Source of the DNA: a virus
Virus record (IMG/VR): IMGVR_UViG_3300050821_004106
Coordinates: 1-30,093 of that record
Direction: 5' to 3' (one strand)
Length of the DNA stretch: 30,093 nt
Numbering within the stretch: the first letter of the stretch is position 1; each line of letters begins with the position of its first letter. Positions 2,577-28,685 of the stretch are shown here, one piece after another. Made by a program: the position numbers and the translations under genes. Under the pieces are notes generated by a model. That model was not told the origin of the DNA and did no database searches. It was given only the letters and a program-made list of their open reading frames with translations.

Positions 2577-2825
2577 ATGAATCAGCAACTTCAGGCACTT
2601 ATAGCACTACAAGCTAAATTGACTTCTAACTATAATGCTATTAATGTACTAATTAATTCCTATATTACTTCAGCTCAAGCTACAATTGCAGCACAACCAA
2701 ATGTGGGATACAACGCTGGTTTAGGTAGAATTAGTCAGAACTTATCTTATTTAGTAACTGATTTAGTCAATGCTCAATTAGAAAATGGTTTTTTAGAGTT
2801 AGCTAATCATTCTAATTTGGTTTAA
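2577..2825 (+). CDS. Small Ala/Gln-rich hypothetical protein (82 aa)
   Basis: An AGGGAAA ribosome site stands before ATG 2577. The product is predicted helical, with heptad-like leucines (NQQLQALIALQAKL) and a second helix near the C-terminus (LVTDLVNAQLENGFLELA). No known domain is recognised. It contains the first CGCTGG hexamer of the window (2714-2719), encoded as Asn-Ala-Gly with the rare AAC codon. A virion or assembly role is inferred only from operon position. Confidence 0.6.
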   Translation: MNQQLQALIALQAKLTSNYNAINVLINSYITSAQATIAAQPNVGYNAGLGRISQNLSYLVTDLVNAQLENGFLELANHSNLV

Positions 2826-2836
2826 GTGTTTATAAA

Positions 2837-2916
2837 AGTTTATAACGCTGGTTGAGGAAGACACTCTCCGTTATAAACTACAGGAACAAATTAATTGTCC
2901 GATTTGTTCCTTGTAG
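2837..2916 (+). promoter_or_regulatory. Two tandem hairpins in the leader of the 137-aa gene
   Basis: Hairpin 1: AGTTTATAACG (2837-2847) pairs with CGTTATAAACT (2869-2879) over 11 perfect pairs, loop 21. Hairpin 2: CTACAGGAACAAAT (2878-2891) pairs with ATTTGTTCCTTGTAG (2902-2916), 14 pairs with one bulged base, loop 10. They share two bases, so they stack or compete. Neither has a T-tract. They fill the whole gap between genes. Confidence 0.65.
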
Positions 2917-2938
2917 ATATGTTTTAGATTTGGACAGT

Positions 2939-3433: not shown

Positions 3434-3467
3434 GTTAAAATAAAAAGAAAGAGAGAATAAATAAAAT

Positions 3468-4187
3468 ATGTCAGTTGCAGTTTTTCAGTTACCTCCTAAT
3501 AGTTCAGGTAGTCAAGTTAATGGAGTTACTGCTGTAATTGGAGGAGCTACTGTAGTAACTCCTGCTGGTGTTATTGCAGATGGTATTGCTCCAGGATCTA
3601 ATATTGCTTCAGTTAATAGTCCTATTTCAGGAGTAGCAGTAAGATTATTTGAACTTGCTGTTTCTTCTGCTCCTGTAGATGGACAGAAAGCTACTTATTC
3701 TGCTGCTGTTACAGGACTTCTTCCTACTGCTGCTGCTTCTACAGGTCTTGTTATTCTTACGGGATCTGCTACAAAAACAGTTAGACTTACTCACGTTCTA
3801 ATTAGTGCTTCTATTGCCACAACTGCTGTATATATTGATTGGCAAGTAGCTAAGTATTCTGCTGCTGCTACTGGTGGAACTTCTACTGCTATGACAGCGG
3901 TTCCATATGATAGTAATAGTGCTGCTGCTACTGCTAGTGCTGCTTCATATACAGGTGCTGGCCCTACTCTTGGAACTCTTGTAGGAGTAATTGCTAATGC
4001 TAAAATGATTGCTCCTGTTACAGCAACTCCAGCGATTTCTAATATCATAGAGTTTAATTTTGGTAATCGTCCAGCGGGTGCTCCTGTATTACGTGGTATT
4101 GCTCAGCAAATTGCTATCACAGCTAATAGTGTCACTTTTGGCACTGCTCCTAACATTGACATTACCTTAGAATGGACGGAAGAATAG
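3468..4187 (+). CDS. Ala/Thr-rich probable virion structural protein (239 aa)
   Basis: A purine-rich ribosome site (AAAGAGAG) precedes ATG 3468. The protein is rich in Ala, Thr, Ser, Val and Gly and almost without charged residues, as in beta-structured capsid decoration or fibre proteins. The central segment (ATKTVRLTHVLISASIATTAVYIDWQ, then ATGGTSTAMTAVPYDSNSAAATA) resembles a family of small phage structural proteins I have seen near head genes; that likeness is from memory. It ends with a beta segment (ITANSVTFGTAPNIDITLEW). Codons are dominated by GCT and ACT, which suggests high expression. A head decoration role is inferred. Confidence 0.55.
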   Translation: MSVAVFQLPPNSSGSQVNGVTAVIGGATVVTPAGVIADGIAPGSNIASVNSPISGVAVRLFELAVSSAPVDGQKATYSAAVTGLLPTAAASTGLVILTGSATKTVRLTHVLISASIATTAVYIDWQVAKYSAAATGGTSTAMTAVPYDSNSAAATASAASYTGAGPTLGTLVGVIANAKMIAPVTATPAISNIIEFNFGNRPAGAPVLRGIAQQIAITANSVTFGTAPNIDITLEWTEE

Positions 4188-4231
4188 AATAAAAGAGTGA
4201 GTGAAGACTAGTATCAATAGGAGTACAAATA

Positions 4232-4258
4232 ATGTCTGAAACTAGTGGTGATTCTTAA
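4232..4258 (+). CDS. Eight-residue coupling ORF (MSETSGDS)
   Basis: AGGAG (4219-4223) lies 8 bases before ATG 4232. The frame stops at TAA 4256-4258, overlapping the ATG of the next gene (TAATG). It is too short for a folded protein but well placed as a translational leader that loads ribosomes for the membrane peptide that follows. Confidence 0.35.
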   Translation: MSETSGDS

Positions 4259-4383: not shown

Positions 4384-4394
4384 GAGTTAAAATA

Positions 4395-4670: not shown

Positions 4671-4677
4671 AAAGTTA

Positions 4678-4700
4678 ATTTGTCGCTGGCTTAGACAAAT
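4678..4700 (+). repeat. Inverted repeat ATTTGTC/GACAAAT
   Basis: Seven-base arms at 4678-4684 and 4694-4700 flank a 9-base loop that completes a CGCTGG hexamer (4684-4689). It lies in the 93-base gap after the gene ending at 4670. It has no T-tract, so it is not an obvious terminator. Confidence 0.4.
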
Positions 4701-4763
4701 ATGATTGGACTACTTAACTATTTCACCTCCGGTTATAGTAAAGTACTAAGAGTAGGGTAGGTA

Positions 4764-5030: not shown

Positions 5031-6694
5031 CACAAGCAAATCAAGTAGTAGAATGGACTCCTTCTAAAAGACAAGAAGATTTTTTTTCCTTACCAGACGA
5101 GATTTTTGAAGCCTTATACGGAGGCGCTGCTTATGGAGGAAAGTCTGATGCATTACTATTCCTGCCTCTTGTAAGAAATTTCATACAACATCCTCGTTTT
5201 AAAGGCTTAATTCTAAGAAGAACTTTCCCAGAACTTGAGAAAGAACTTATAGTACGTTCACGTCATTGGTATCAATTAGCAGGAGGAAAATATAATGATC
5301 AAAAACATGTTTGGACATTTCCTTCTGGAGCAATGATACAGTTTGGTTATTGTGAACATGAAAAAGATGCTCGTAATTATGATTCTGCTGAATATAATTA
5401 TATAGCATTTGATGAGTTAACTTCATTTACTTGGTTTCAGTATTCCTATATTGCATTTACTCGCTGTCGTACAACGGCAGGAAGTGGATTACCAGCAATA
5501 GTTAGAAGTGGTACAAATCCGGGAAACATAGGACATCTATGGGTTAGGGAAAGATTCATAGAGCCTTGCCATACTGGAAATAGAATATTAGTTTCTGAAA
5601 CAGAGATTCGTGGACAAAAGAAACTAACTAGACGTATTTTCATTCCCAGCAAACTTTCTGACAATCCTTACGCTGATCCACAATATGAAATTAATCTTCA
5701 GATGTTACCAGAGGCTGAGAGAGCTGCTAAAGCTGATGGTGATTGGTATACATTTGAAGGACAGGTTTTTGATGATTTCAGATTGTGGGTTTTAAGTAGT
5801 GATGGATTATCTTATGAGCAAATAAATAAACATGAACCAATCAATGCCTGTCATGTAATAAAACCAGTAGTATTACCACTACATTGGCCAAGAGTACTGT
5901 CTGTTGATTGGGGTTACACAGCAATGATGTGTTCTGGTGTATATGCCATTAATCCCGTACAAAGTGAAAGATATCCAGCGAAAATATATAAGGAATTTGA
6001 GTACGCTGGTAAGAAACTTAAAATATCTACCTGGGCTACTAATTTAGCTAGATATACATCTCACATGAATATAGTAAAACGTGTTATAGATCCTTCTGCA
6101 CAACAGAATAGGGGAGACGAATTTACTATACGACAGCAAGTAGAAAATTATTACGGAGCAAGTTTTGAGTTGGCAGTTAATGATCGAATTGCTGGAAAAA
6201 GTTTACTACAAGATCATCTTCGCTGGTTACCAAAACCAGTTAAGAAAATTCCACAAGAACAGTTAGATCAAGAAGAAGCATTAAGAATATACAGGATGTT
6301 AGGTCCTGATGCTTATAAAAGATATATAGATCAGTATACTCAAGAAGAGCTAGAAAGATTTTTACCAAAGTTAGTATTGTTTGATACCTGTATAGAAACA
6401 ATCAAAACAATTCCTCTTTGTGTTTATAAAAAAGGAACAGAGGGAAGTAACACAGAAGATGTACAAGAGTTTGATGGTGATGATCCTTACGATGAAACTA
6501 GATATGGATTAAAAGCGTGTCAAAATTATTTAGAAGGAAATACAATTTTAACAGAAAGAGAGGAAAAAGTAGAAAGGATAGAAAATCAATTTAAACAAGA
6601 TAGTAATAGTTATGAAAGACATTATAAATTAGAAAAGGTTTTGTCTGAGAAATCAGTAAAGCCTGTTAAAATAAGTAAAAAAAGAAGATTTTAA
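5027..6694 (+). CDS. terL: Terminase large subunit, irregular start (about 555 aa)
   Basis: This packaging motor has an N-terminal ATPase that pumps DNA into the prohead and a C-terminal nuclease that cuts it. Numbering from codon 5027: Walker A GGAAYGGKS at 32-40, Walker B IAFDE with Asp129/Glu130, coupling motif GTNPG at 162-166. The RuvC-like nuclease has Asp294 (SVDWGY), Asp355 (VIDPSA) and an acidic group DGDDPYDETRYG including Asp489. Length is normal. The frame is closed by TAA at 5021 and has no ATG, GTG or TTG before Walker A; the first possible codon is CTG 5027. ATG 5011, with an AAGAG ribosome site, is one frame off. Conserved-looking coding (EWTPSKRQEDFF) already begins near 5051, so the start is non-canonical, a +1 shift is used, or the sequence has an indel near 5024-5050. 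Confidence 0.92.
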   Translation: MTQANQVVEWTPSKRQEDFFSLPDEIFEALYGGAAYGGKSDALLFLPLVRNFIQHPRFKGLILRRTFPELEKELIVRSRHWYQLAGGKYNDQKHVWTFPSGAMIQFGYCEHEKDARNYDSAEYNYIAFDELTSFTWFQYSYIAFTRCRTTAGSGLPAIVRSGTNPGNIGHLWVRERFIEPCHTGNRILVSETEIRGQKKLTRRIFIPSKLSDNPYADPQYEINLQMLPEAERAAKADGDWYTFEGQVFDDFRLWVLSSDGLSYEQINKHEPINACHVIKPVVLPLHWPRVLSVDWGYTAMMCSGVYAINPVQSERYPAKIYKEFEYAGKKLKISTWATNLARYTSHMNIVKRVIDPSAQQNRGDEFTIRQQVENYYGASFELAVNDRIAGKSLLQDHLRWLPKPVKKIPQEQLDQEEALRIYRMLGPDAYKRYIDQYTQEELERFLPKLVLFDTCIETIKTIPLCVYKKGTEGSNTEDVQEFDGDDPYDETRYGLKACQNYLEGNTILTEREEKVERIENQFKQDSNSYERHYKLEKVLSEKSVKPVKISKKRRF

Positions 6695-8139: not shown

Positions 8140-10545
8140 GTGCCTAAAAAGAATAAACAATTAACAGTTCAGGAAAAAAGGGATAAGGTTCCTGAACATA
8201 TACGTAAAGCATTTAAAGACATTTTTTCTGCATGTAAAAATGAAGATGCTGAAACACGTAAGGCACAAATTAAAAATTGGAAAGAAGCTGAAGAATTTTG
8301 GTCTGGTGTACAGTATATATTCTGGTCTGAAAGAGATTCTACATGGATTAATCCAGCAGATCAAGCTTGGAGAGAAGGTCTTACTCAAGAAGAATTAGAA
8401 GATGTTGGTCCCTTTTATGATTACATTGTAAATATTTATCGTGCTCATGGTGAAGCTATTATTGCTTCTCTAAGTGCCCAAATACCGTCACTTAGATTTA
8501 TACCAGATAATGCAGATGATACTAATGATACTGTAACAGCAAGAACTTATGATAAAATTGCTGATCTTGTGTCAAGACACAATAAAGCAAAAATGATTTT
8601 TCTTAGGGCGCTGTTTTTCTTGTGGAACTGTGGAATTGTAGCGTCTTATAGATACAAAGAAGCTGATCCGTCATACGGAACTTATGAAGTTCCTGTTTAT
8701 GAGGATGTAGAAGAGAAAGAAATTACTAATGAGTGTCAAGATTGTGGTTTTAGTTGGCCTGATAATTCTAATTCAAATACTGATTTACCTAATGATACGA
8801 TATCAGATACTAGTAATCCAGCAAATGATAGTGATAATGTTCGAGGAAATGAAGAGCAACAGGAACAGCAGCAATCAGGAATTACAGAACAAGAAACAAA
8901 ATGTCCTAAGTGTGGATCAAGTGAAATAGAACAAGAAGAAAGTACTAAACAAGTACCTAAACAAACAGGAACAGAAACTCTTCCTAAAACTAGAGTTAAA
9001 ATAGATATTATTGGTCCTCTTTTCTTTAAGATAAATTACTATGCTACTAAACAGCAAGAAATAACCTATTTTATAAGATGGATAGATCAAGCCAAATCTA
9101 CTATCAAATCTATTTATTGTCCTGATGGTAAAGACAGTGAATTATCACGAGAAATAGATGAGGGTAGATTAGAAAGTCATGATAGATTTACAAGGTCAGG
9201 ACACACATACCCTAATGATCCAGACTATGATACACAACCAATAACTACACTTATAAAATTCTGGTGTAGACCGTCTGAGTATTGGCGTATTAAAGATGAG
9301 AAAGTTAGACTAGAGTTAATAGAAGATTATCCGCTGGGTTTAGAGCTTACTTTTGTAGGTAAAAATGAGTATTTTGTAGAAGTCTCTGGTGAAGCTGACG
9401 ATCAGTTAGATATTAAGTGGGAAATAGGACAAGCTGGGTTATCTACTTATATTCATTCTGATCCAATTGGCAAACCATTACTACCTATTCAGAAAATGAA
9501 AAATCAGGTAGTGAATATGTCTATTGATGTTATAGACCATTCTAATCCCAGCGCCTTTGCTGATCCGTCATTGATAAACTTTGATGCTTACGGAAAAACA
9601 GAAGCGTTACCTGGTTATTTATTTCCTTTTAAAGAAGGTTCTGTTCGTTCTGGAGAATCCGCTGGCAATAGAATATTTGTAATGCCAAAAACTTCTCTCG
9701 GTACAGAAGTTCCTGTATTTGAAGAGTACTTAGATAAAGATGCTCAATTTACAGTAGGTAGTTTTCCTAGTATTTATGGAGGAAGTGGAAGTAATACTAG
9801 CAGAACTGCTAAAGAATATGAACAGTCCAGAGCAATGGCTCTACAGCGACTTACTATTATATGGACTTTTGTTGTTGATTGGTGGGTCAGAACTGTAGAG
9901 GGAATGGTTCGTACTTATGCATCAGTAATTGCTGGAGACGAAAGATTTGCAAAGTGGGATAATGGATCTTACATAAATATTTGGATAAGAAAATCTGAAC
10001 TTTCTGGAAAAGTTGGTGGTGTAGAGTCAGAGGCATCTGAACAATTTCCAATATCATTAATGCAAAAAAGATCGTTACTTATTGAACTTATTCAAATGCA
10101 AAATCCAGCAATTAATCAAGCTCTTTTTACTCCTGATAATGCTAGAATTTTACAAGATTCTTTAGCTCTTAATGAATTTACTCTTCCTGGTGAAAACCAA
10201 CGACTTAAACAAATGTTAGAAATTAATGATCTAACAAAGATGCAACCTATTGCACCTAATGTTCCTTCTATTCCAATAGATGCAGATGTAGATGATGATA
10301 CTGTACATATTTCTGTGGCTACTAATTGGGCTGTTAGTTTGGCAGGAATTGATTGCAATAGGAACAATCCTGCTGGTTATATGAATGTTATTTATCATAT
10401 TAATCTTCACAAACAAAATCAAGCTCAAAAACAATTACAGCAAGCTAAAACACAGATAATGATGCAGAAGAATAGTAGTCAGCAAGATCCTAAAAAACAA
10501 GAGTTTACTAGACAAATGTCTAATAAACAAACCAAAACACAATGA
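8140..10545 (+). CDS. Portal protein with zinc-ribbon insertion (801 aa)
   Basis: The portal is the dodecameric ring at one capsid vertex through which terminase pumps DNA. It starts with GTG 8140. The early helical region (NWKEAEEFWSGVQYIFWSERD, DVGPFYDYIVNIYRAHGEAIIASLSAQIPSLRF) is typical of long P22-like portals, and the extended C-terminal part is Gln-rich and helical (barrel-like). Unusual: residues 199-258 carry Cys199-x2-Cys202 and Cys255-x2-Cys258 on either side of a disordered Asn/Asp/Glu/Gln-rich stretch, a split zinc ribbon. The order terL-portal-scaffold-coat supports the call. Its TGA overlaps the next ATG (ATGA). Confidence 0.85.
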   Translation: MPKKNKQLTVQEKRDKVPEHIRKAFKDIFSACKNEDAETRKAQIKNWKEAEEFWSGVQYIFWSERDSTWINPADQAWREGLTQEELEDVGPFYDYIVNIYRAHGEAIIASLSAQIPSLRFIPDNADDTNDTVTARTYDKIADLVSRHNKAKMIFLRALFFLWNCGIVASYRYKEADPSYGTYEVPVYEDVEEKEITNECQDCGFSWPDNSNSNTDLPNDTISDTSNPANDSDNVRGNEEQQEQQQSGITEQETKCPKCGSSEIEQEESTKQVPKQTGTETLPKTRVKIDIIGPLFFKINYYATKQQEITYFIRWIDQAKSTIKSIYCPDGKDSELSREIDEGRLESHDRFTRSGHTYPNDPDYDTQPITTLIKFWCRPSEYWRIKDEKVRLELIEDYPLGLELTFVGKNEYFVEVSGEADDQLDIKWEIGQAGLSTYIHSDPIGKPLLPIQKMKNQVVNMSIDVIDHSNPSAFADPSLINFDAYGKTEALPGYLFPFKEGSVRSGESAGNRIFVMPKTSLGTEVPVFEEYLDKDAQFTVGSFPSIYGGSGSNTSRTAKEYEQSRAMALQRLTIIWTFVVDWWVRTVEGMVRTYASVIAGDERFAKWDNGSYINIWIRKSELSGKVGGVESEASEQFPISLMQKRSLLIELIQMQNPAINQALFTPDNARILQDSLALNEFTLPGENQRLKQMLEINDLTKMQPIAPNVPSIPIDADVDDDTVHISVATNWAVSLAGIDCNRNNPAGYMNVIYHINLHKQNQAQKQLQQAKTQIMMQKNSSQQDPKKQEFTRQMSNKQTKTQ

Positions 10546-10931: not shown

Positions 10932-11787
10932 TTTATTATTTGTTAGTTTATGTTTTGGGCAGCAGCCAGCGAGTCATATCGTTTCTGGTCCTAAATTACC
11001 AACAAAATGTTCATATTTATCGGGAGATGTATTTATATTATCTACAATACCGTATAATTCTTCTACTAACGGACAGTATTTGTGTGGTCCCACTGGAACT
11101 TTTTCTGTAGGACCATTGAGTTCTAGTAGTAGTTCACCTACCGGAACAGCAGGAGGAGACTTAAGCGGTACATATCCTAATCCTACTGTTAAGAATATAA
11201 ATGGCACAGCTTTCAGTGGAATAAACGGTGATTTAGTTTCTTTTGGTACTGGTAATGTTCCTAGTGATTCTAGTATTTCTGCTGTTAATGTAATTACATC
11301 ATCTACTGCCGCTGGAGGAGTGTTAGCAGGTACATATCCTAATCCAACACTAGGAATATTAAATCAAAATTTAGGCTTTGTAGATGCAACATATGATATA
11401 GGTTCTGGAGGCTCTAACCGTCCTAGAAATGTAAATATTGCAGGTACATTCACTGGAGTTACAGCTAATCTTTATATTGGAATAACTGGGTTTAGTAGTT
11501 GTAGCTCATCGGCGTCTCCAGCCGTTTGTGCAGGAAATTGGTCTGGTGCAGTTGTAGTAGCAGCGGCGGCAACAACAGTACAGGTTAATACTACAGCTAT
11601 AACTGCTAATTCACAAATTCTATTAACTTTTGATTCTTCTTTAAGTACTAAATTATCTGTTACGTGCAATACTACACTTCCGACTGTATACAGTGTGACA
11701 GCGCGAGTACCAGCTACATCATTTACCATAACAGCAACTGCACCAATAACAAATCCAGCATGTTTTTCGTATTTAATTATTAATTAA
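10912..11787 (+). CDS. Signal-peptide fibre-like protein with Tyr-Pro-Asn-Pro repeats (291 aa)
   Basis: The N-terminus MLRLLTSLLFVSLCFG followed by QQP reads as a Sec signal peptide (basic start, hydrophobic core, small residue at the cut site). The mature part is Ser/Thr/Gly-rich and contains two copies of a fibre-type repeat, GGDLSGTYPNPTV near residue 81 and GGVLAGTYPNPTL near residue 137. Such GTYPNPT repeats are known in phage tail fibres and bacterial surface proteins. The rest is beta-rich with paired Cys. The gene starts inside the previous one and ends directly against the ATG of the ATP-grasp gene. A signal peptide on a virion-operon product is odd; export, membrane anchoring or a host-derived domain are the options. 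Confidence 0.65.
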   Translation: MLRLLTSLLFVSLCFGQQPASHIVSGPKLPTKCSYLSGDVFILSTIPYNSSTNGQYLCGPTGTFSVGPLSSSSSSPTGTAGGDLSGTYPNPTVKNINGTAFSGINGDLVSFGTGNVPSDSSISAVNVITSSTAAGGVLAGTYPNPTLGILNQNLGFVDATYDIGSGGSNRPRNVNIAGTFTGVTANLYIGITGFSSCSSSASPAVCAGNWSGAVVVAAAATTVQVNTTAITANSQILLTFDSSLSTKLSVTCNTTLPTVYSVTARVPATSFTITATAPITNPACFSYLIIN

Positions 11788-13047
11788 ATGAAATATTTAA
11801 TGTACTCAGAGTTTTCCGAAGGTGCTGGCGTTCTTCTTAAAATACAACAAGAAGAGGAGGACGCTGGATTATTCATAAAAGATAGAGTCTACAGAGATTG
11901 TTACGACGGTATTGTAAGTAAAGAAGAAACTCCTAATATAAATTCCGATACATTAGTAATTTTTGATATGTCAGGTAATGGTAAAAAAGGTGATGAATTT
12001 AGATCATTAGGAGCTAAAGTATTTGGATCATCTCCTATTGCCGATAAGCTTGAACATGATAGAGATTTTGGTTTTGAAGTAATGGAATCTTGCGGTATAT
12101 TAGTTCCTACTACTAAAAAGTTTAAAACTTTTAAAGAAGGAATTAATTATACTAAAAACTTTGATGGTAAGTTAGTTTTTAAACCAAATGGTTCTATGCC
12201 ATGTAAATTAACTTACTGTTCATCTGATAATGAAGAGTTAGTTGCCTACTTGAATTTTGTAGATAAACAATTTGGATCTGAAATTGATGATTTCATTCTT
12301 CAAGAATTTTTAGAAGGAGTTGTAGTTTCTTCTGAAGCATTTTGTGATGGGAAAAAGTTTCTTCGTCCTTTTAACCATACAGTAGAAGTTAAAAAGTTTA
12401 TGGATGGAGATAAAGGTCCAAGTACAGGATGTTCTGGTAATATTACTTGGGCTTGCTGGGGATGTAATATTTGTGAAAATGGAGTAGCTTTAGCAGAAAA
12501 ATTTTGTGTTAAACATGATTATGTAGGACAAATTGATTTAAATGCTGTTGTAAATGAAGATGGCATTCATGGATTAGAGTGGACTCCTAGATTTGGTTAT
12601 GATGCTACTCCTATTTTCTTAACTTTACTTGATATCCCGTATAGTAAGTTTTTTAGTGATGTTTGTTCAGGACAAATTAAAGAAATTCCTGTTAAAGAAG
12701 AGTACGCTGGCTCTGTTCGTTTTTCAATACCTCCATATCCAGCGGAACTGCAAGATGGTCAGGACAGCGAGAAGTTTAGCCCTAATGTAGGAATTCCTAT
12801 TCAAAACTGGCACGAAAGTTTTGATAGTATATACTTTTACGAAGTAAAAATTGATGGAAATGAATTAGTACATTCTCATGGAACTGGTGTTATAGGTCTT
12901 GTTTGGGATCATAATGATAGTCCTGAAAAGACTTTAGATAAACCTTATGGAATACTAGATAAATTACATATTCCTGATTTACAATTTAGAACGGATCTTC
13001 AGTCTGTTCTAGGAAAGATGGTAACTGAAGTAAACGATTATGCCTAA
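11788..13047 (+). CDS. PurD-like ATP-grasp ligase (419 aa)
   Basis: ATP-grasp enzymes join a carboxylate to an amine or thiol through an acyl phosphate. PurD does this with glycine and phosphoribosylamine. Length and order match PurD: AKVFGSSPIADKLEHDR at about 76-92, KLVFKPNG at 128-135, QEFLEG at 172-177, DGDKGPSTGCSG at 206-217 (PurD DGD-GPNTGGMG), GLEWTPRFGYDA at 262-273 (PurD EFNARFGDPE) and a C-terminal FRTDL motif. Differences: the Asn of the usual Glu-x-Asn metal site is Thr266, and the N-terminal phosphate loop of PurD is missing. Residues 215-229 hold Cys215, Cys223, Cys226 and Cys229 (CWGCNIC). It begins at the stop of the previous gene and overlaps the scaffold by 8 bases, so it is made with the virion proteins. 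The substrate is unknown; true purine synthesis is unlikely. Confidence 0.8.
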   Translation: MKYLMYSEFSEGAGVLLKIQQEEEDAGLFIKDRVYRDCYDGIVSKEETPNINSDTLVIFDMSGNGKKGDEFRSLGAKVFGSSPIADKLEHDRDFGFEVMESCGILVPTTKKFKTFKEGINYTKNFDGKLVFKPNGSMPCKLTYCSSDNEELVAYLNFVDKQFGSEIDDFILQEFLEGVVVSSEAFCDGKKFLRPFNHTVEVKKFMDGDKGPSTGCSGNITWACWGCNICENGVALAEKFCVKHDYVGQIDLNAVVNEDGIHGLEWTPRFGYDATPIFLTLLDIPYSKFFSDVCSGQIKEIPVKEEYAGSVRFSIPPYPAELQDGQDSEKFSPNVGIPIQNWHESFDSIYFYEVKIDGNELVHSHGTGVIGLVWDHNDSPEKTLDKPYGILDKLHIPDLQFRTDLQSVLGKMVTEVNDYA

Positions 13048-14245
13048 TGATAATAAAGTTATTGGTGATCCGTTAGAAGATGTTTTAGACGATACTAGTA
13101 ATGAGCAAGAGGAGGAAATAGAAAAAGTAGAAAATAAAGAATTAGAGGAAGAAAATGAAGAAGATGATGAGTTAGAAGATAAAGAAGAAGATAAAGAAGA
13201 AGAAGAGTTAGAAGGAGATGAAGAAGACGAAGATACAGAAGTAATAGTAAAACCAAGAATTTCCGATATTAAAAAAGAATTTCCTGGAATTTTTACTAAG
13301 TTTCCTGATCTTAAAGATGCTTTCTTTAAATCTTATGAGTATGAAAAATTATTTCCTACTATAGACGATGCAAAAGAGGCTTTCAATGATAATGAAGCCT
13401 ACTTAAATCTTCGTGAGTCTGTACTATCAGGTAATCCTGAACTATTACTTACCGGACTTAAAAGTACAGACACTGAGGCATACACTCTTTTTACTAGGAG
13501 ACTTCTTCCAACATTATTTAAAAATGATAAGGATTTATACACAGAAGTTGTTACTCCAGCGATAGAAGGCTTATTTAAAAATGCCTTTAAAGAGGCTAAA
13601 AAACATTCTAATGAAAACTTAGAAAATGCTTGTTTGGAGTTAGTAGAACATATTTTTGGTAGTGATGAGTTACTCACCAAAAATATTACTTATACTAAAG
13701 AATTAAAAGCAACTAAACCCGAAGAAGTAACTCAACGAGAAACAGAACTGTATAATTCTGCTAGAAATGATTGTGCAGAAAAGATTGATAAATCTATAAG
13801 ATTAGAAATAAGAAAAGGATTAGACCCAAATAATGAATTAGTGCCATTTATACGTAAAAGTATTATTAGTTCTGTTGTCAGAGAGTTAGACAAACAATTA
13901 GGAGTAGATACTAAATTCCAAGCAACACAATCGGCAAGATGGGGAGTAGCAAAAAGAAAAGGATTTGATGAATCTAGTAAACGTCAGTTAATAAATGCGG
14001 CCCTGGCACGTATAAAGCCTATGATTCCTCAATTAAGAGAAAAATTTAAAAATGCTGCTCTTGGTAGTGCAAAAAAGAGAAGTGATGATACTCGTGAACA
14101 AATAACTAGAAATACCCCAAATAAAAGAGAAATTACTGGTGGAAATAGAAATGTAGGTAAAGGTAAACTAGACTCAAGTAAAATTGATTATAGTAAAACC
14201 AGTGACCTTGATTTATTTGAAGATCGTGTAGTTCTTAAACGTTAA
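13040..14245 (+). CDS. Scaffolding protein (401 aa)
   Basis: The internal scaffold guides coat assembly and leaves before or during packaging. The N-terminal 70 residues are almost all Glu/Asp/Lys (for example NEEDDELEDKEEDKEEEELE), and the body is helical with no enzyme motifs. The C-terminus is basic (RSDDTREQITRNTPNKREI, ending VVLKR), as expected for the coat-binding tail of scaffolds. Immediate position before the coat gene strongly supports the call. It overlaps the end of the ATP-grasp gene by 8 bases. Confidence 0.8.
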   Translation: MPNDNKVIGDPLEDVLDDTSNEQEEEIEKVENKELEEENEEDDELEDKEEDKEEEELEGDEEDEDTEVIVKPRISDIKKEFPGIFTKFPDLKDAFFKSYEYEKLFPTIDDAKEAFNDNEAYLNLRESVLSGNPELLLTGLKSTDTEAYTLFTRRLLPTLFKNDKDLYTEVVTPAIEGLFKNAFKEAKKHSNENLENACLELVEHIFGSDELLTKNITYTKELKATKPEEVTQRETELYNSARNDCAEKIDKSIRLEIRKGLDPNNELVPFIRKSIISSVVRELDKQLGVDTKFQATQSARWGVAKRKGFDESSKRQLINAALARIKPMIPQLREKFKNAALGSAKKRSDDTREQITRNTPNKREITGGNRNVGKGKLDSSKIDYSKTSDLDLFEDRVVLKR

Positions 14246-17249: not shown

Positions 17250-17894
17250 ATGTCAATACTTACATTACAAACAGTTCTTAGTCAGGCTAGAACACTATTA
17301 AACGATGACGCTGGATCACAGTTTCCAGACAGTATTTTAATTCCTAAAATACAATTAGCACATCAGGAATTACAGACTGCCTTATGGGATGCTGGTTCTC
17401 CTTCTGTAAGAGCTGTTAGTTCTCCTATACAAATAACTGCTGGTAATTTAACACTTACTCCAACATCATCCCCTGCATTACCAAGTGACTATCTTACTGC
17501 TTTTAGATTAATGGAAAGTGCTGCTAGTACTGGTCCCTGGACACCAATGACTGAAGTAATGTTTATTACTGATCTTCAATTAGCTGGTTATATAGCTGGT
17601 GCTACTTTAAAATGGTGGTGTAATATTCAAGATCAAATTGCTTTTTTAGGTTCAACTAATTCTCCTTATATAATAATGAATTATCGTCGTTTTATTGCTC
17701 TCCCTGTAGCAGCTACTGATTCTCTTGGTGTTCCTTTTGCAGAGCAATATCTTTCTTATAGGGCTGGAGCTTTAGCAGGAGGAAGTTTAGGTGATCCTAA
17801 TAGTTTAAAGAATTTATCTGACATGGCAACTGCTAATTTGGTTAAAGTTGTTATGGCAAATCGTGGTAAACAAATGTCTCCGATAAAACCATGA
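17250..17894 (+). CDS. Tail adaptor/connector protein, paralogue 1 (214 aa)
   Basis: This resembles the head-to-tail adaptors of podoviruses (P22 gp4-type role), which dock under the portal. AAGGAG precedes ATG 17250. The N-terminal signature SQARTLLNDDAG, then FPDS.L.PKI..AHQEL (residues 11-41), is shared with the protein at 20128 (SQARTYLNDESG, WPDS.L.P...AHNEL). The shared C-terminal part YRRFIALPVAATDSLGVPFAE matches YRGTLIAPVSLTDSLGFILAE. The two are clear paralogues, about the same length. It overlaps the spike gene by an ATGA. Confidence 0.7.
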   Translation: MSILTLQTVLSQARTLLNDDAGSQFPDSILIPKIQLAHQELQTALWDAGSPSVRAVSSPIQITAGNLTLTPTSSPALPSDYLTAFRLMESAASTGPWTPMTEVMFITDLQLAGYIAGATLKWWCNIQDQIAFLGSTNSPYIIMNYRRFIALPVAATDSLGVPFAEQYLSYRAGALAGGSLGDPNSLKNLSDMATANLVKVVMANRGKQMSPIKP

Positions 17895-20127: not shown

Positions 20128-20808
20128 ATGTCTCCTAGTGCATCTACAGCATTAACAGCAATTAGTCAGGCAAGAACTTATCTTAATGATGAGTCTGGTA
20201 ATGTATGGCCTGACAGTAGGTTAATGCCTATTCTTACTACTGCTCATAATGAACTTTCTAGTAGATTAATTGCTAATGGAGTAGCTATTGTAAGACAACA
20301 GAGTCAAATTATAACAGTTCCTCCAATAAATCCACTTCAAACACCTCCTATACCTCTTCCTAACCAACCATCTAATATGGTATTTCCAATAAGTATGCAG
20401 GAAAAACAAACAGGAAGTGACATAGAGTTTTTTATAGATATGTCGCAAATGGACTTTGTTCCTATGTTAGATCCTGTTGAAGAGTTAGGTTACTGGGCTT
20501 GGATTGGCCAGCAGATAATGATTATAGGGGCTACTGTTTCTGTAGATGTTTTATTACGTTATAGAGGAACTCTTATTGCTCCTGTGTCCTTAACTGATAG
20601 TTTAGGATTTATTCTTGCCGAATTATTTTTAGGTCCTAGAGTAGCCGCACTTGCTTATATGTCTTCTGGTGACCAGCGATGGAAAGATTTTGATAAGCAA
20701 GCACAAGAAAGTTTAAGTACAGTTATTGGATATAATGTCGCTGGTAATCAAGGTGTAGGTAAAAGACGCATGGCTTATAGACGTGGTGGTAACAGAAGAA
20801 TTTATTAA
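20128..20808 (+). CDS. Tail adaptor/connector protein, paralogue 2 (226 aa)
   Basis: It shares with the protein at 17250 the N-terminal signature SQAR.YLND.SG...PDS.L.P...AHNEL (residues 13-43), the central WIGQQIMIIGATVSV stretch and the TDSLGFILAE region. It ends with a basic Arg/Gly tail (GKRRMAYRRGGNRRIY) that the other copy lacks. One copy may sit at the portal and the other may form a second ring or bind the spike. It starts 5 bases after the spike stop, with no clear ribosome site. Confidence 0.7.
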   Translation: MSPSASTALTAISQARTYLNDESGNVWPDSRLMPILTTAHNELSSRLIANGVAIVRQQSQIITVPPINPLQTPPIPLPNQPSNMVFPISMQEKQTGSDIEFFIDMSQMDFVPMLDPVEELGYWAWIGQQIMIIGATVSVDVLLRYRGTLIAPVSLTDSLGFILAELFLGPRVAALAYMSSGDQRWKDFDKQAQESLSTVIGYNVAGNQGVGKRRMAYRRGGNRRIY

Positions 20809-20823: not shown

Positions 20824-21486
20824 ATGATATACAAAGGACAAGCAAATTTAATTCAAAGTATTCAAAGAAAAGATATAAACTTATGGAATTTCTTGAATAC
20901 TATTGATATGTTCTTACTTGCTATTGGCAATTCAGGATCAGATAATCCACAAATAGCTGTATGCAAACAAAATAACTTTCCTAAATTATTCAGCGGACAG
21001 TCACAATTTGTGTATGTTTCAGATTATGGACATTTAATCTATTGGGACGGAGTAAACGCTAATTTTTGCGATGGTGGAAACGATTTTTATTGTCTAGCTG
21101 ATACTATTCCAAGTACAATTGGCTGGGTACAAGTCGCTGGACAAAGTATAAGTTACTTAACTCCTTTAGGATTATTAGTTCCTAAAACTTTGCTTAATAC
21201 TACAGCTACTAGTGCTTTTCTTAAAGCTACTAATACAACACCAGCGACTTTTACAAGTCCTGTGGCTGCTAAAATAACAGGAAATGTTGATACTAATACT
21301 ACGGGAATAACTGACACTACAGCTGTTATAAATAATCCAGCTTCAGGTGGAACTGCTGTAACTGTACTAAAAACATTATCAGATCCTGGGCATAATCATG
21401 TAGTTAATACAGTTCCTGGAACATTGATTAATGATAGCCTAGCTACACCTGAAAGTTTTAATAGTAAACTTTGGTATAGATTATGA
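20824..21486 (+). CDS. Tail collar/fibre-like protein (220 aa)
   Basis: The first half is a helical/beta region (NLIQSIQRKDINLWNFLNTI, QFVYVSDYGHLIYWDGVNAN). The second half is Thr/Asn/Ala-rich, with a His-rich end, DPGHNHVVNTVPG, like the metal-binding His motifs of phage tail collar and fibre tips. It lies just before the nozzle-like gene, with which it overlaps by ATGA. No ribosome site is seen. The fibre call rests on composition and the His motif. Confidence 0.5.
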   Translation: MIYKGQANLIQSIQRKDINLWNFLNTIDMFLLAIGNSGSDNPQIAVCKQNNFPKLFSGQSQFVYVSDYGHLIYWDGVNANFCDGGNDFYCLADTIPSTIGWVQVAGQSISYLTPLGLLVPKTLLNTTATSAFLKATNTTPATFTSPVAAKITGNVDTNTTGITDTTAVINNPASGGTAVTVLKTLSDPGHNHVVNTVPGTLINDSLATPESFNSKLWYRL

Positions 21487-23615
21487 CGCCAGCGGCTAAC
21501 CCACCAATAGGACAATTAACTAATTTTAAAGGTTGGTGGGACAGAGGAAGTATTATTGACTGTCCTTCAGATTACTTAGCTACATGTAAGAATTGTACAT
21601 TTAATAATAAAGATGTTGGTATTCGTGGTGGTTTAACATCTGCTTACACACTTAATAATAATTGTGTAGCTTTTTTCGCTTATAGTACATCTGTTGCTAC
21701 AGCAGCTGCTGGTAAAAATATATTATATATGGACGGATCAGGTAATTTGTACAATGAAAATACAAATACCTTACTTCATACATTTACAGGAGCTACTGAC
21801 TTTGTTGCTTTAGAATTATTTGGTAGAGTTTATATATCTGCTAAGGTAAATGGTTTAGCCTTACCTAGTGAATTTATATATTATTGGGACGGTAGTAATT
21901 TCAGGAAAATCGCTGGTGCTGGTCCAAGTAGTAACATAACTTTAGCACAAGTAAATCCAGGTATAGTAAATGCTGGTGTACACTATGTAGCAGTATCTTT
22001 TCAATACGCTACAGGTTATTTATCACCTCCTTATGCATTTTCTTCTTTATCTTCTATAAATAGTACTGGAAGTAATGACATAGAGTTATCCACAATTCCT
22101 ACTGGACCCGCTGGAGTAGTTGCTCGTGTATTATTAATGACAGTCGCTGGTGGAACACAGTTATTTTTTGTTCCTGGAGGAACAATAAATGATAATACTA
22201 CAACAACAGCTACTATAAATGTTTATGATACAAGCTTATTACAAGATGCTTCTTACTTATATAATATAGTAACAGAATTTCCCTCTGTTAGTCATATCGG
22301 ATTTTATAATGGAAGAGCTATTTTTGTTGGTCCTGTAAATAACTCTGTTCCACTAGCAGTAGGAACATTTGATCCTAGTCCATTTCAGGTATTTACGTCA
22401 GATGTAGATATTTTTGACAGTATAAATATAATTAATAATATTATAAATACTCCAAAAGATAACTATCTAAACTCTCCGAACAGTAGTTTAGTTATAAATG
22501 GAGTAATGTATATACTTAAACCATATGGTACGTTTTCTACTCAAGATAATGGATCTGTTCCTAATACATGGAATTTACTTCCTGTAGATAGTAGTCTTGG
22601 TGGTTATGATTCAGGAATAAGTGTATTTAGTTCTGGATTATCGGGAAGTGATATATTTAATATAAGTGTAATATTACACCCAAGAGGGATATTACTTTTT
22701 AATGGTGCTTATAGTGATCCTCCATTATCTTATAGTATTGAGGACTTCTGGACGAGTCAGCAGGTTCCGTTAAATCAGATAAAAATAGCTCATGATCCTA
22801 TAAATAAAGCTTTTTATATACTAATAGTAGGAGCAGTAACAAGTAATATAGTTTACGCAGACTATAGTGATGGGCTAACTCCAAACACTATAAAATTTAG
22901 TTTTTGGGAATTTTCTGGGAGTACTGTTGTTGATGTTGTAGAATACTCGGATCAAGCAGGAAACTACCAAATATTATTTGTTGATAGTACTGCTGCTCTT
23001 TATAACTTAAATATTACTCATAATTATGATAAGAGTACAGGTAATCCCATATTACAGTCAATACAGAGTAGTCTTGTAGGAAGTGACGAGGCTATTTCTT
23101 GTTTTAATGGAATAAAGAGTGATATTAGGGGAAGTGGTTACTTTGTTTTTAGCTTGTCAGATCAGTATGGAAATGTACTAGGATCTTCTAGTAATAATTT
23201 TAATATAGGTAACTTTCCTCCTGGTGATTTTTATACTGGCATCAATCAAACTACTGAAAAAATTTCTATAACTTTTTCTAACCAACCTGTGGGATCTCAG
23301 TTTGCTTTAAATTACGGACAACTTACTATAACTAAAATAGATATTTACGGTATTGGAAGATATAAAGTAAGGCCAGCGAAAAAAACGTTTATTATTGTTT
23401 CTATTGTTAGTAGTGGTGGTCTTGTAGAAATACAGACTGAAAGTGCTCATGGTTTTTCTACTAACCAATATATTAATGTTTACGGAGTAACAGGAACAGT
23501 AGAAGCAAACGGAAATAATCAACAAATTACAGTAATTGATAGTACTCATTTTACTATTAATGGAAGTACTTTTACACACACGTTTACTGGTGGTGGGATT
23601 GTTTATCAATGGTGA
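21483..23615 (+). CDS. Tail nozzle-like beta-propeller protein with C-terminal FCCH-like domain (710 aa)
   Basis: Length, order and beta-repeat content suggest the tail nozzle (P22 gp10-type role) that extends the tail tube. The N-terminus (NFKGWWDRGSIIDCPSDYLATCKNCTF) and recurring strands such as ALELFGRVYISA and SHIGFYNGRAIFVG look like propeller blades. The last 70 residues (ESAHGFSTNQYINVYGVTGT, then NQQITVIDSTHFTI) fit the small beta-barrel module described for FCCH-type domains. It is coupled to the previous gene (ATGA). It carries several CGCTGG hexamers, one of which is an exact E. coli Chi octamer (22146-22153). Confidence 0.65.
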   Translation: MTPAANPPIGQLTNFKGWWDRGSIIDCPSDYLATCKNCTFNNKDVGIRGGLTSAYTLNNNCVAFFAYSTSVATAAAGKNILYMDGSGNLYNENTNTLLHTFTGATDFVALELFGRVYISAKVNGLALPSEFIYYWDGSNFRKIAGAGPSSNITLAQVNPGIVNAGVHYVAVSFQYATGYLSPPYAFSSLSSINSTGSNDIELSTIPTGPAGVVARVLLMTVAGGTQLFFVPGGTINDNTTTTATINVYDTSLLQDASYLYNIVTEFPSVSHIGFYNGRAIFVGPVNNSVPLAVGTFDPSPFQVFTSDVDIFDSINIINNIINTPKDNYLNSPNSSLVINGVMYILKPYGTFSTQDNGSVPNTWNLLPVDSSLGGYDSGISVFSSGLSGSDIFNISVILHPRGILLFNGAYSDPPLSYSIEDFWTSQQVPLNQIKIAHDPINKAFYILIVGAVTSNIVYADYSDGLTPNTIKFSFWEFSGSTVVDVVEYSDQAGNYQILFVDSTAALYNLNITHNYDKSTGNPILQSIQSSLVGSDEAISCFNGIKSDIRGSGYFVFSLSDQYGNVLGSSSNNFNIGNFPPGDFYTGINQTTEKISITFSNQPVGSQFALNYGQLTITKIDIYGIGRYKVRPAKKTFIIVSIVSSGGLVEIQTESAHGFSTNQYINVYGVTGTVEANGNNQQITVIDSTHFTINGSTFTHTFTGGGIVYQW

Positions 23616-24969: not shown

Positions 24970-25596
24970 ATGTGTGGTCAAACAGGTCCAGTCACTAGTA
25001 CTGTTAGTAAGACTAATGATGTAATAAATCAGATTGATAGTACAGATAGTGGATTTAATAGCCAATTACAAAGTTTTCTTGGTAGTTTAAGTAATTCTCC
25101 AGCGGCTAGTAGCTTACCATCTATTGAGTCTGGACTACAGAATTTTTCTGCTACAGGTGGAATAACACCCGGAATGACTTCATCTATTGATGACCAAGCT
25201 GCTCAAGCTGCACAGGGAGCTTATTCTACTGCTAGTGATACAGCTAATAGACAATTAGCAGCTACAGGTGGTTATGGTGATGTGGGTGCTATTGACGCCA
25301 ATTTAGCTAGAACAGGATCTGCTGCTGGTGCTAATGCTGTTAATTCTGCTAATTCTCAGCTAGTTCCTTTAACTACTAGTAACGAATTATCAGGACTTAC
25401 TGGACAAGCTGGATTATATACAACTAATGCACAGCAACAACAGAGTATAATAAATAGTATATTACAACTATTCAGTACAAGTGTCGGAGGTATTAATAGT
25501 GCTCTTGGTACACAAGCTGGATTATCTGTTGCTCCTGGATCTGGTACTATTGCTAGTAATAATATTAGTAATCTGGTTGGAGCTTTAATGCCTTAA
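24970..25596 (+). CDS. Ala/Ser/Gln-rich probable internal virion protein (208 aa)
   Basis: An AAAGAGAG ribosome site stands before ATG 24970. The protein is low in charge and rich in Ala, Ser, Gly, Thr, Gln and Asn (for example DDQAAQAAQGAYSTASDTA), giving flexible helices. It resembles podovirus internal or ejection proteins in composition, and it opens a three-gene block after the lysis genes, the usual place for ejection proteins. Sequence identity to a named family is not claimed. Confidence 0.5.
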   Translation: MCGQTGPVTSTVSKTNDVINQIDSTDSGFNSQLQSFLGSLSNSPAASSLPSIESGLQNFSATGGITPGMTSSIDDQAAQAAQGAYSTASDTANRQLAATGGYGDVGAIDANLARTGSAAGANAVNSANSQLVPLTTSNELSGLTGQAGLYTTNAQQQQSIINSILQLFSTSVGGINSALGTQAGLSVAPGSGTIASNNISNLVGALMP

Positions 25597-25622
25597 TTGT
25601 TTAATTAACTGGGTAAATAAAA

Positions 25623-26927
25623 ATGCCAATATCTGATTATCTTAGTGAAGTTGATCCTAATGTACAAAATACTTACTCTAGTTTAGAAGAGCCAGATAAA
25701 CAAAACAAGAAAAAGAAAGTTATTGATACTCCTAATAATCCACAAATAAATATTCCTAGTCCAGGACAATACGAACAGCAATTAGCTACTCTTATTAATC
25801 AGCAACCAGAAAGAGAAAATTATATACCATCTGTCAAAAGACGCATATTAAATGCTCTTGCTGGTTATGCTATTGGTGGCAGAGGACATAGATTAGAAGC
25901 TATTGAAGGATTAAATAGTCTTGGTTATGATAGAGCAGAAAGTGATTGGCAAAGTAAAATAAAAGCACTTGATCCTCTTGTTAAAAGTGAACAAGAAAGA
26001 ACTAAAACTGGCTTAGAAACTGCTAAATTAGGTGAAAAGACTGAACTTGATAGTGAAAGAGAGTCTAGATTAGCAGAAGCAGGAAAAGAATTAGCTGCTC
26101 ACAGATCAGCAGAAGAAGTTATCACTAAACAAAGAGATGACTTAAGAAATCAATTAGCAGCTGGTAATCTGTCTCTTAAAGAATATGAAAGTAAAGTTAA
26201 AGAGCATGAGTTTGAATTAACTGAGCTAAGAAAGAAAAATGAAGATTTACAAAAACAAATAGAAGGTGGTCTAAATCGAACAGCAGCGCAAAAAAGAGCT
26301 GAAACTGTTGCTGGTACTAGACAAAATGCTTATAATCAGGATTTTAAACCTGCTACCAAACAAGCAGGAGATCAAATAATTAATAGTATTAAAGAACAGA
26401 ATTTAGAAGGAGATAGTCTTAAAGATGCTGTAGATGCTGCTCCTGACGAAGAAACTAAAAAATATATTACTGCTAAACTTCCATCTATAAATAAACAATA
26501 TCCCGCTGGTCCTAAAGCTACTACTGCTGAACAAAATACTGCTAGTTCTGCTGTACTATCGATGCACATTATTAATAATATTAGATCTTTAATTCCTAAA
26601 AACTTAACTGGTCCTATAAAAGGACGTGTTGAGAAGGGACAATTAATTATTGGTAACGCAAGTTATGATATGCAGGCTTTAAAAACAGCACTAACTAATT
26701 TATCCGCTGCTGAAGCTGCTGCTATATCTCAGGGACGTACAACTAAAGTTATGTTCGATGCCATTCAATCAGGTTCTGGTAAATTTGAAATGAATGCAGA
26801 TCAAATGAGAGGTGCTCTTGACAGTATATATGATATCGCTAAACATAGGGCTAGAGGTAGAAAAGTAGATAATGAAAGTAGTAGTTCTAGTTTATTAGAT
26901 GGAGCAATAATTAAAGAGGTTAAGTAA
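25623..26927 (+). CDS. Long coiled-coil probable ejection protein (434 aa)
   Basis: The N-terminus is polar and disordered (to about residue 55), then comes a small Gly/Ala stretch (LNALAGYAIGGRGHR). A long charged coiled coil follows at residues 120-225 (REERTK-type heptads such as RLAEAGKELAAHRSAEEVI and EYESKVKEHEFELTELRKK). The end is helical (LTNLSAAEAAAISQGRTTKV). Such coiled-coil proteins are injected with DNA in podoviruses. A tail-fibre chaperone is a less likely alternative. Confidence 0.5.
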   Translation: MPISDYLSEVDPNVQNTYSSLEEPDKQNKKKKVIDTPNNPQINIPSPGQYEQQLATLINQQPERENYIPSVKRRILNALAGYAIGGRGHRLEAIEGLNSLGYDRAESDWQSKIKALDPLVKSEQERTKTGLETAKLGEKTELDSERESRLAEAGKELAAHRSAEEVITKQRDDLRNQLAAGNLSLKEYESKVKEHEFELTELRKKNEDLQKQIEGGLNRTAAQKRAETVAGTRQNAYNQDFKPATKQAGDQIINSIKEQNLEGDSLKDAVDAAPDEETKKYITAKLPSINKQYPAGPKATTAEQNTASSAVLSMHIINNIRSLIPKNLTGPIKGRVEKGQLIIGNASYDMQALKTALTNLSAAEAAAISQGRTTKVMFDAIQSGSGKFEMNADQMRGALDSIYDIAKHRARGRKVDNESSSSSLLDGAIIKEVK

Positions 26928-28685
26928 ATGCCAGATGATACAATTACTACTGATATTACTCTCAAAGATGGAACTAACCATCGTATAATTGCCCCAAAAG
27001 ATTACTTTACAAAAGATAAAGATGGTAATTTATCAATTGCCAATCAAGATGGTCTTGAGTCTATAATTAAACAGGAAACTGAGAACAAATCAGGCCCTGG
27101 TAAAAGTCCAAGTTCTAGGCAAGTTTTTAAACCGCAATATAATCCTAAAGAAGAGTTTGAAAAAAGTAGTATAAATAAATTTCCTTTAAACATAACTTCT
27201 CCTAGTCATACTGCTAAATATAGTATGGAAGGACAAGATCAGCAAACTCCTTGGTACGATAAAATTCTTGGTTATGGTGAAGACGCTGTAAATTTAGCAG
27301 GAGTTGCAGCAGCGCCAGAAATTGCTGCTTTTGCTAAGGCAAAACCTATTATTACAGCGCTAACATCAAGCGCTGGCTATGGAATGAATAGATTGGCCGA
27401 TAGTTTAGGAGCAAGTGAGGAAGAATCGGAAGCCATTGGCTTAGGAGCTAGTTTAGTAGGATCTTCTTTAGCAAGTCCTAAAATGATGGGTGGTTATAAA
27501 GGTAGCCTATCTTCTATAAAACCAACAAGAGGATTACCATTAGCAGCTTTAGGTTATATGTTAGGTGGTCCTAAAGGATCTGCTGCTGGCGAAGCTGTTA
27601 GTCAAATTCCTGAAATGATTAGGGGTTTTTTAACAGGAGGTGCAGGAAAAGATTGGTTACCTAAATACGAAAGACCTAATTATCCTGAACCTGATTTTGG
27701 AGTTAGAAATCCTAGTGTTAGTAGTAATACTCAAATACCTGGAGCTTATAATATGCCTTCTGGTAATTATCAGGAAGCTCCCGCTGGTTTACTAGATGAA
27801 TCATCTTTATATAAACAACCTAAACAAAAACTATTAACTGCTCCCGATTCAGTAAAACCCGAATTTCATTTAGGTTCTGGTGAAACTGAACAGCAGCCAG
27901 AACAACAAGAAAAACCAAAAAGAGTAATTAAAAAAGACGAGGAAAAATCTCGTTTAAAAGGCTACACTAAGAAAGCAGATCAAGCAGGTAAAAATATTAG
28001 AAAAGTATTATCCAAAGACAAAACTTTAGAACAAAGAACTGCTGAAGATTTAGTAAAAGGTCTAGAAGAAGGTAGGAAATATAATGATGAAGGTGAGGAG
28101 ATTACTCTTAAAAAAGAAGATGCCTCTCAGCAAAAACCAAAAAGAGTAGTTAAGAAACCTATTAAAAAAGAAATACAACAAGATGACGAACCAGCGACTA
28201 AAACGAATAATAGGACAGTTAGTAGAAGCCCTAAACAGGAACAAAAAGAAAACACAGTTACTACTCCAGAAAAAGAAAGTAAATCAGAAAGTCCAGGAAC
28301 AGCAAAAATAGCTACAGAACATCAGGTACAACAACATGCTAATGAAAGTGGAATAGGAATTGACGAAGCTAAAAAACAACTTGAAGATAGTGGTCACGAA
28401 GTCTATAATCGAGCCAAACTAAATAAAGCCATACATGGATTAGGCAGGAGTAAGGGCCTAACCCATGATGACATTAGTGATATTGCAAGTAGTACTCATA
28501 AAACAGATAGTATGAGCAAGCTAACTGAAGATCAGTTGCATAATTTATATAAAACAATTAGTGATCTTCCTGACAAAGAACTAAAAAGTACTACAAAAGC
28601 TGCTGGTAACGGCAATCAAAAAACTAAAAGTGATCTGATCAAACAGTTAGAAGACTCTTTAAAAAAGATTAAGAAGACTGATTAG
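26928..28685 (+). CDS. Long probable ejection protein with Gly/Ala hydrophobic core (585 aa)
   Basis: ATG 26928 follows the previous TAA directly. The N-terminal 110 residues are polar. Residues about 110-230 are small-residue-rich and semi-hydrophobic (AVNLAGVAAAPEIAAFAKAK, LGASLVGSSLASPKMMGGY, LAALGYMLGGPKGSAAGEAV), as in ejection proteins that enter or cross membranes. The C-terminal half is highly charged, Lys/Glu/Gln-rich and disordered. Its stop overlaps the stop of the opposite-strand gene by three bases. Function is inferred from composition and position. Confidence 0.5.
   Translation: MPDDTITTDITLKDGTNHRIIAPKDYFTKDKDGNLSIANQDGLESIIKQETENKSGPGKSPSSRQVFKPQYNPKEEFEKSSINKFPLNITSPSHTAKYSMEGQDQQTPWYDKILGYGEDAVNLAGVAAAPEIAAFAKAKPIITALTSSAGYGMNRLADSLGASEEESEAIGLGASLVGSSLASPKMMGGYKGSLSSIKPTRGLPLAALGYMLGGPKGSAAGEAVSQIPEMIRGFLTGGAGKDWLPKYERPNYPEPDFGVRNPSVSSNTQIPGAYNMPSGNYQEAPAGLLDESSLYKQPKQKLLTAPDSVKPEFHLGSGETEQQPEQQEKPKRVIKKDEEKSRLKGYTKKADQAGKNIRKVLSKDKTLEQRTAEDLVKGLEEGRKYNDEGEEITLKKEDASQQKPKRVVKKPIKKEIQQDDEPATKTNNRTVSRSPKQEQKENTVTTPEKESKSESPGTAKIATEHQVQQHANESGIGIDEAKKQLEDSGHEVYNRAKLNKAIHGLGRSKGLTHDDISDIASSTHKTDSMSKLTEDQLHNLYKTISDLPDKELKSTTKAAGNGNQKTKSDLIKQLEDSLKKIKKTD

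Follow-up and report, generated by a model that had tools for sequence, protein, structure and literature searches.

Over-represented CGCTGG sites in a fragment of an uncultured phage

The window analysed here is a stretch of viral DNA of 30,093 bases and 34% GC that makes up an entire IMG/VR virus record (IMGVR_UViG_3300050821_004106), and the element under study is the hexamer CGCTGG, which recurs within it in great excess. Many late genes of the window have homologues in related phages, among them those for a terminase, a portal-sized protein and an ATP-grasp protein, and subsequent head and tail genes. Near-complete or complete relatives of 44-49 kb also carry a UDG-PolA fusion, an SNF2 helicase, a Cas4-like nuclease, a Sak4-like ATPase and a DUF3987 protein. 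Judged by these relatives, the window appears to be the late portion of a roughly 45-kb genome, with the replication region absent from the fragment; the DNA polymerase A replication module, which near-complete relatives encode as the UDG-PolA fusion, corresponds to a region outside it.

Exact counting gives 38 copies in the window, 22 as CGCTGG and 16 as its complement CCAGCG, or about one copy per 0.8 kb over both strands. The original prediction, a reading of the letters alone, had given the same figures against about three expected, and all the positions that it cited are right. The sites, from exact word counting and reading-frame assignment, are the following.

2714..2719, plus strand, CGCTGG site, AAC GCT GGT
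2846..2851, plus strand, CGCTGG site, intergenic
4029..4034, minus strand, CGCTGG site, CCA GCG
4071..4076, minus strand, CGCTGG site, CCA GCG
4684..4689, plus strand, CGCTGG site, intergenic
5975..5980, minus strand, CGCTGG site, CCA GCG, within terminase
6004..6009, plus strand, CGCTGG site, within terminase
6221..6226, plus strand, CGCTGG site, CGC TGG, within terminase
9332..9337, plus strand, CGCTGG site, CCG CTG GGT
9548..9553, minus strand, CGCTGG site
9660..9665, plus strand, CGCTGG site
10966..10971, minus strand, CGCTGG site, CCA GCG
11310..11315, plus strand, CGCTGG site
11862..11867, plus strand, CGCTGG site
12705..12710, plus strand, CGCTGG site
12739..12744, minus strand, CGCTGG site, CCA GCG
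13556..13561, minus strand, CGCTGG site, CCA GCG
14371..14376, minus strand, CGCTGG site, CCA GCG
15324..15329, plus strand, CGCTGG site
15421..15426, plus strand, CGCTGG site, CGC TGG
15538..15543, minus strand, CGCTGG site, CCA GCG
16565..16570, plus strand, CGCTGG site, CGC TGG
17015..17020, minus strand, CGCTGG site
17309..17314, plus strand, CGCTGG site
20673..20678, minus strand, CGCTGG site
20739..20744, plus strand, CGCTGG site
21135..21140, plus strand, CGCTGG site
21241..21246, minus strand, CGCTGG site, CCA GCG
21489..21494, minus strand, CGCTGG site, CCA GCG
21911..21916, plus strand, CGCTGG site
22109..22114, plus strand, CGCTGG site
22145..22150, plus strand, CGCTGG site, start of CGCTGGTGG
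23373..23378, minus strand, CGCTGG site, CCA GCG
25099..25104, minus strand, CGCTGG site, CCA GCG
26504..26509, plus strand, CGCTGG site
27371..27376, plus strand, CGCTGG site
27782..27787, plus strand, CGCTGG site
28191..28196, minus strand, CGCTGG site, CCA GCG

The excess is specified at the level of DNA

CGCTGG ranks first among the hexamers of the window, with an expectation of 2.8 copies from independent bases and 3.4 from a second-order Markov model. It is also the top hexamer (z 4.8) under a maximal-order Markov model, whose expectation of 22 is high because the over-representation of the sub-words CGCTG and GCTGG is already built into it. The most informative null is a synonymous-codon shuffle of the coding DNA, which leaves protein sequences and codon usage unchanged. 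Far from the count near 38 at which the original prediction was to be given up, the shuffle yields 4.3 +/- 1.9 copies against 36 coding copies observed, an excess of about 8-fold, with a maximum of 12 in 300 shuffles and again of 12 when these were extended to 1000. Preserving the dinucleotides at codon junctions as well leaves the expectation at 4.2 (maximum 9 in 100). When all hexamers are ranked by the codon shuffle CGCTGG comes first (z about 16-17), and the next words, at about 9, overlap it. Even equal usage of synonymous codons produces just 13.8 copies (maximum 21 in 100), and the excess is therefore not the leftover of a formerly GC-richer genome. Protein contexts able to carry the word are themselves in mild excess (248 vs 215), which deserves little weight since GCTGGC and CTGGCG, of identical composition, behave similarly; because the shuffle fixes the protein, it may for this reason be conservative. 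CGCTGG is thus a short, non-palindromic word over-represented in a phage genome, the property looked for in Chi sites.

The specification is sharp. One-letter variants of CGCTGG occur near or below expectation, with the mild exceptions of TGCTGG (42 vs 26) and CGCTGT (10 vs 4.2), and 15% of the positions at which the protein permits CGCTGG use it, compared with a median of 0.5% for words with an identical base composition. By context, the word is used at 13 of the 40 Pro-Ala pairs, 16 of the 63 X-Ala-Gly contexts and three of the six Arg-Trp pairs. The coding copies span all three phases, as had been claimed, and 29 of the 36 are of two kinds, NNC GCT GGN (16) and CCA GCG (13). The excess of CGCTGG is a sharply specified DNA-level site and neither a codon nor a composition effect, which bears out the earlier view that the signal is the hexamer itself, on both strands and independent of codons.

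Placement shows no order. Two of the 38 copies are intergenic, with no accumulation between the genes of the window (1.0 vs 1.3 per kb), and amino-acid conservation at the sites is no different from elsewhere. Regular spacing was considered and rejected (coefficient of variation 1.11 vs 1.03 for random choice); within the window, stretches of 3.1 and 3.4 kb are free of the word. Random spacing, occurrence on both strands and the lack of clear positional conservation between relatives are what one would expect of a signal whose density, not place, matters. It is true, as originally stated, that no copy lies before 2.7 kb or after 28.2 kb, but the empty ends are not significant (P = 0.20), holding just 9 and 1 of the 241 coding positions able to carry CGCTGG. 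The proposed tie to the rightward late block does not survive this result, nor the genome-wide spread of the corresponding motifs in relatives. The suggested link to the E. coli Chi octamer GCTGGTGG fares no better: instead of the two reported, three exact octamers are present (at 7952 and 22146, plus one on the minus strand at 29183), and the octamer is not enriched (one coding copy vs 1.4 expected).

Related phages write words of their own

Relatives were collected with the terminase of the window as query.

5333..6694, plus strand, terminase large subunit, C-terminal part, 453 aa (PHROG 979, E 2.9e-19; HMO-2011-like matches)

Two terminase profiles returned 63 and 57 virus loci with some overlap, about 110 in all. 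The nearest terminases are those of human-gut contigs, at about 32% identity, and the named phages with similar terminases include HMO-2011-like ones (CRP, HTVC and HMO-2011), at about 27-29% identity, with Roseobacter, Pelagibacter and Puniceispirillum as hosts. To judge from this homologue of the group's terminase, the window is distant kin of the HMO-2011-like phages; within its own clade it shares late genes. The beginning of the terminase open reading frame aligns to position 246 of 642 of PHROG 979, in the middle of the profile (window 3468-6694), and the N-terminal half lies outside the same frame; the gene may be split, carry an insertion or be frameshifted.

Enrichment of CGCTGG at the level of the window is found only in the window. 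The original prediction had regarded relatives without the motif as evidence against it, and literally they do lack it, but they hold other, equally extreme words, which widens the finding. By the same synonymous-shuffle null, many relatives over-represent a GC-rich word of their own. One of these is CGCGCGC, with observed against expected counts of 66 vs 1.2 (G004), 95 vs 3.1 (G636), 87 vs 4.0 (G637), 42 vs 1.4 (G638), 33 vs 0.9 (G005), 37 vs 3.1 (G002), 53 vs 7 (G009), 18 vs 1.7 (G008) and 25 vs 1.6 (G639). Other genomes favour CGGCGCG (48 vs 1.1, G635), AGCGGCA (60 vs 5.2, G010), ACGGCT (121 vs 18 in G640, 22 vs 1.9 in L302) or CGGCTGG (14 vs 1.2 in G014/L007, 11 vs 0.8 in L299), and GTGCCGG, GCGGCT and TGCGCTG are weaker words of G641, L298 and L296, respectively. 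Relatives that have no strong word are mostly of 47-53% GC. In G014 the word favours the sense strand, as does its codon expectation. Over-representation of a sharply defined GC-rich 6-7-mer, each phage with its own, is therefore a habit of the clade, shared by many of its members.

The words cluster on the terminase tree, with 14 label changes against 21.4 when labels are shuffled (none of 200 shuffles was as low), and L007, whose word CGGCTGG is similar to CGCTGG, groups with the window in a small, supported clade. CGCGCGC occupies at least three separate places on the tree and CGGCTGG two: lineages can switch their word or converge on the same one. Within the CGCGCGC clade, homologous positions capable of carrying the word share it just a little more than under independence (18 times against about 11, summed over pairs); the density of the word thus seems to persist although individual positions change. 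None of four cultured marine HMO-2011-like phages tested (HMO-2011, CRP-13, CRP-235 and HTVC033P) has a comparable word, and no strong word was found in part of T5 or in Lactococcus phage c2.

The window itself avoids CGCG (1 vs 6.2 expected), while in many relatives the hyper-enriched word is CGCGCG.

A Chi-like site as a candidate function

Selection in these phages seems to favour a short DNA signal that differs between lineages. The reappearance of one word in separate clades points outside the phage, for example to the host, and a host reader fits the convergence of distant clades on shared words best. We infer that the words may be selected because a protein of the infected cell recognises them by sequence, and the most likely reader would be a helicase-nuclease of the RecBCD/AddAB type. 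Our tentative reading, possible rather than probable, is that CGCTGG serves as a Chi-like site for such an end-processing enzyme of the host. It would act as a stop signal that turns degradation of phage DNA from its ends into recombinational repair, the ends being exposed upon linear entry, by packaging cuts or in rolling-circle replication, and different words would correspond to hosts that differ in Chi specificity. The Chi words known from experiment are likewise short and GC-rich (GCTGGTGG, AGCGG and GCGCGTG). Among host readers the Chi helicase-nuclease is preferred because it has a direct phage precedent: E. coli phages without a recombinase of their own over-represent the host Chi with a median observed/expected ratio of 3.1, and the same tendency reaches to the virulent T5 (PMC3784561). 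Of the roles suggested originally, a Chi-like recombination or anti-degradation site is the leading candidate, and an unproven one.

Several observations weigh against a Chi-like role. The enrichment, 8-fold in the window and up to about 50-fold in relatives, is far above that of Chi in T5, which amounts by the same method to 2.4-fold (3 vs 1.2 in 40 kb), and Lactococcus phage c2 shows no enrichment of GCGCGTG (1 vs 0.5). Relatives encode Sak4-like and Cas4-like recombination proteins, which should lessen any dependence on a host Chi. CGCGCGC, which overlaps extensively with its own complement, is a poor fit to a directional site, and CGCTGG has no strand polarity in the window. Finally, about 620 bacterial genomes (40 diverse, 296 Bacteroidota, 142 Alpha- and 143 Gammaproteobacteria) contain no case of a comparable CGCTGG bias. 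The highest ratio of CGCTGG to its reversed control was 6.4, in a genome of which 160 kb lie below the codon expectation for CGCTGG. This ratio is a poor statistic, since in the sampled high-ratio genomes the count exceeds that of the codon shuffles little or not at all, at best 22 vs 12.4 in 20 kb. A search of 84,980 GTDB species genomes with the terminase profile found no relative and hence no prophage to indicate a host; a search for phage tRNAs gave two genes only and indicated no host. An iterated word of similar style, in this case in a bacterial genome, was encountered in Bacteroidetes bacterium RIFCSPLOWO2_12_FULL_37_12 (G032, L224-L227), where GTGACAC/GTGTCAC is present 42 times vs 5.3 in 80 kb.

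Alternative explanations

Modification in the manner of HIP1 is an unlikely alternative, in which a phage or host methyltransferase modifies the motif, and repair directed by methylation, or selection for methylated sites, drives the word frequency upwards, as proposed for HIP1. The density of HIP1 in cyanobacteria is also near one per kb. Such motifs, with variants GCsGC, GrCGyC and rCCGGy, have been tied to cognate methyltransferases (Elhai 2015, PMC4390886), and a ParB-N6/N4 methyltransferase fusion is present in eight of nine near-complete CGCGCGC genomes. Against this, G639 has the word (25 vs 1.6) but lacks the enzyme; G642 and G012 encode the enzyme although neither has a comparable motif, and the motif of G643, which encodes it too, is weak. 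The enzyme is missing from all AGCGGCA, CGGCGCG, ACGGCT and GTGCCGG genomes, and its presence is confounded with clade. CGCTGG, unlike the CGCGCG of relatives, is not a palindrome as HIP-type words are, and the fragment excludes the early region where a methyltransferase gene would sit. The original suggestion of a phage-encoded methylation target is weakened because the one methyltransferase found in relatives is neither necessary nor sufficient for the motif. In this fusion (L069:9716-10975), carried by many CGCGCGC relatives, DPLW replaces the usual DPPY-type motif.

A DNA-binding function encoded by the phage itself, a replication, packaging or condensation protein that recognises the word and whose specificity drifts among lineages, is improbable to about the same degree. 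Motif identity does track phage phylogeny across large distances, and relatives have genes in common: the UDG-PolA fusion and the DUF3987 protein are common to near-complete relatives, and the Cas4-like and SNF2 proteins are found in nearly all. The same genes occur, however, in relatives devoid of a strong motif (G006, G007, G011 and G642), none of the genes examined tracks motif identity, the sites have no preferred position, and an identical word reappears in distant clades.

Somewhat less probable still is that some other system of the host, concerned with defence or genome maintenance (CRISPR-Cas adaptation, a nucleoid or translocase motif, an uptake-like bias), favours DNA bearing the word. 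Convergence, action at the level of DNA and unordered sites would suit it as they suit Chi, and the density resembles that of DNA uptake sequences; these are features of host genomes, however, and the roughly 620 genomes offer no matching bias. Ordinary composition, or a codon or codon-pair bias without function, can hardly be the cause, for although GCT, CCA and GGN are common codons in the window, AG, PA and CTG-rich words are frequent and TGCTGG is mildly raised too, the shuffles with and without codon junctions kept fall far below 36 copies, words of the same composition are scarcely used at their possible sites, and copies in both coding orientations, in rare frames and between genes behave alike.

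Known systems and implications

The closest parallel is Chi in phages, likewise a short GC-rich word under selection at the level of DNA, found in virulent phages too and expected to be host-specific (Bobay et al. 2013, PMC3784561). Its enrichment is 2-3-fold, whereas the clade of the window reaches 8- to about 50-fold with many words, and E. coli Chi itself is not among the enriched ones. HIP1 of cyanobacteria shares the lineage-specific, short, GC-rich word dense across coding sequence, the switches among related genomes and a possible methyltransferase link (PMC4390886); the words of the window clade differ in belonging to phage genomes, in being often non-palindromic and in having no consistent cognate methyltransferase. 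The HMO-2011-like phages share the terminase homology and, with near-complete relatives, the DNA polymerase A replication module, but the four cultured marine members tested are without a comparably enriched word. DNA uptake sequences of the Neisseriaceae and Pasteurellaceae resemble the phage words in occurring about once per kb, in lineage dialects and with a sharp consensus, and differ in their length of 9-12 bases and in being host-genome features of competent cells.

It is conceivable, and we put it forward with due reserve, that an uncultured phage clade writes a lineage-specific GC-rich 'password' into its DNA, as densely as about two copies per kb and with as much as about 50-fold enrichment, that its lineages change words and arrive at a shared one upon encountering the same host machinery, and that the words form a catalogue of the Chi-like or other self-recognition specificities of uncultured hosts. 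If the words are Chi-like, the end-processing specificity of hosts could be read straight from phage sequence and used as a tool to link phages to hosts, and selection by host nucleases on phage DNA would be much stronger than previously measured. If they are not, another, undescribed sequence-specific system shapes these genomes. Whichever reading holds, the synonymous-shuffle scan is a simple and testable screen for other phage families.

Other features of the window

The ATP-grasp protein (GARS_A fold, E 7e-15) is encoded at 11788-13047, among the head genes, and has homologues only in G002, G004, G009, G014 and G016 among the relatives compared. The C-terminal end of a 710-aa protein (21483-23615) matches the FCCH domain of ubiquitin-activating enzyme E1 (E 2.5e-9). 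Several six-base palindromes are strongly avoided in the coding DNA of the window, with observed against expected counts of 1 vs 12.6 for CTGCAG, 3 vs 14.1 for CAGCTG, 1 vs 9.8 for TGATCA and 2 vs 7.9 for AGATCT, an avoidance that suggests restriction pressure from the host.

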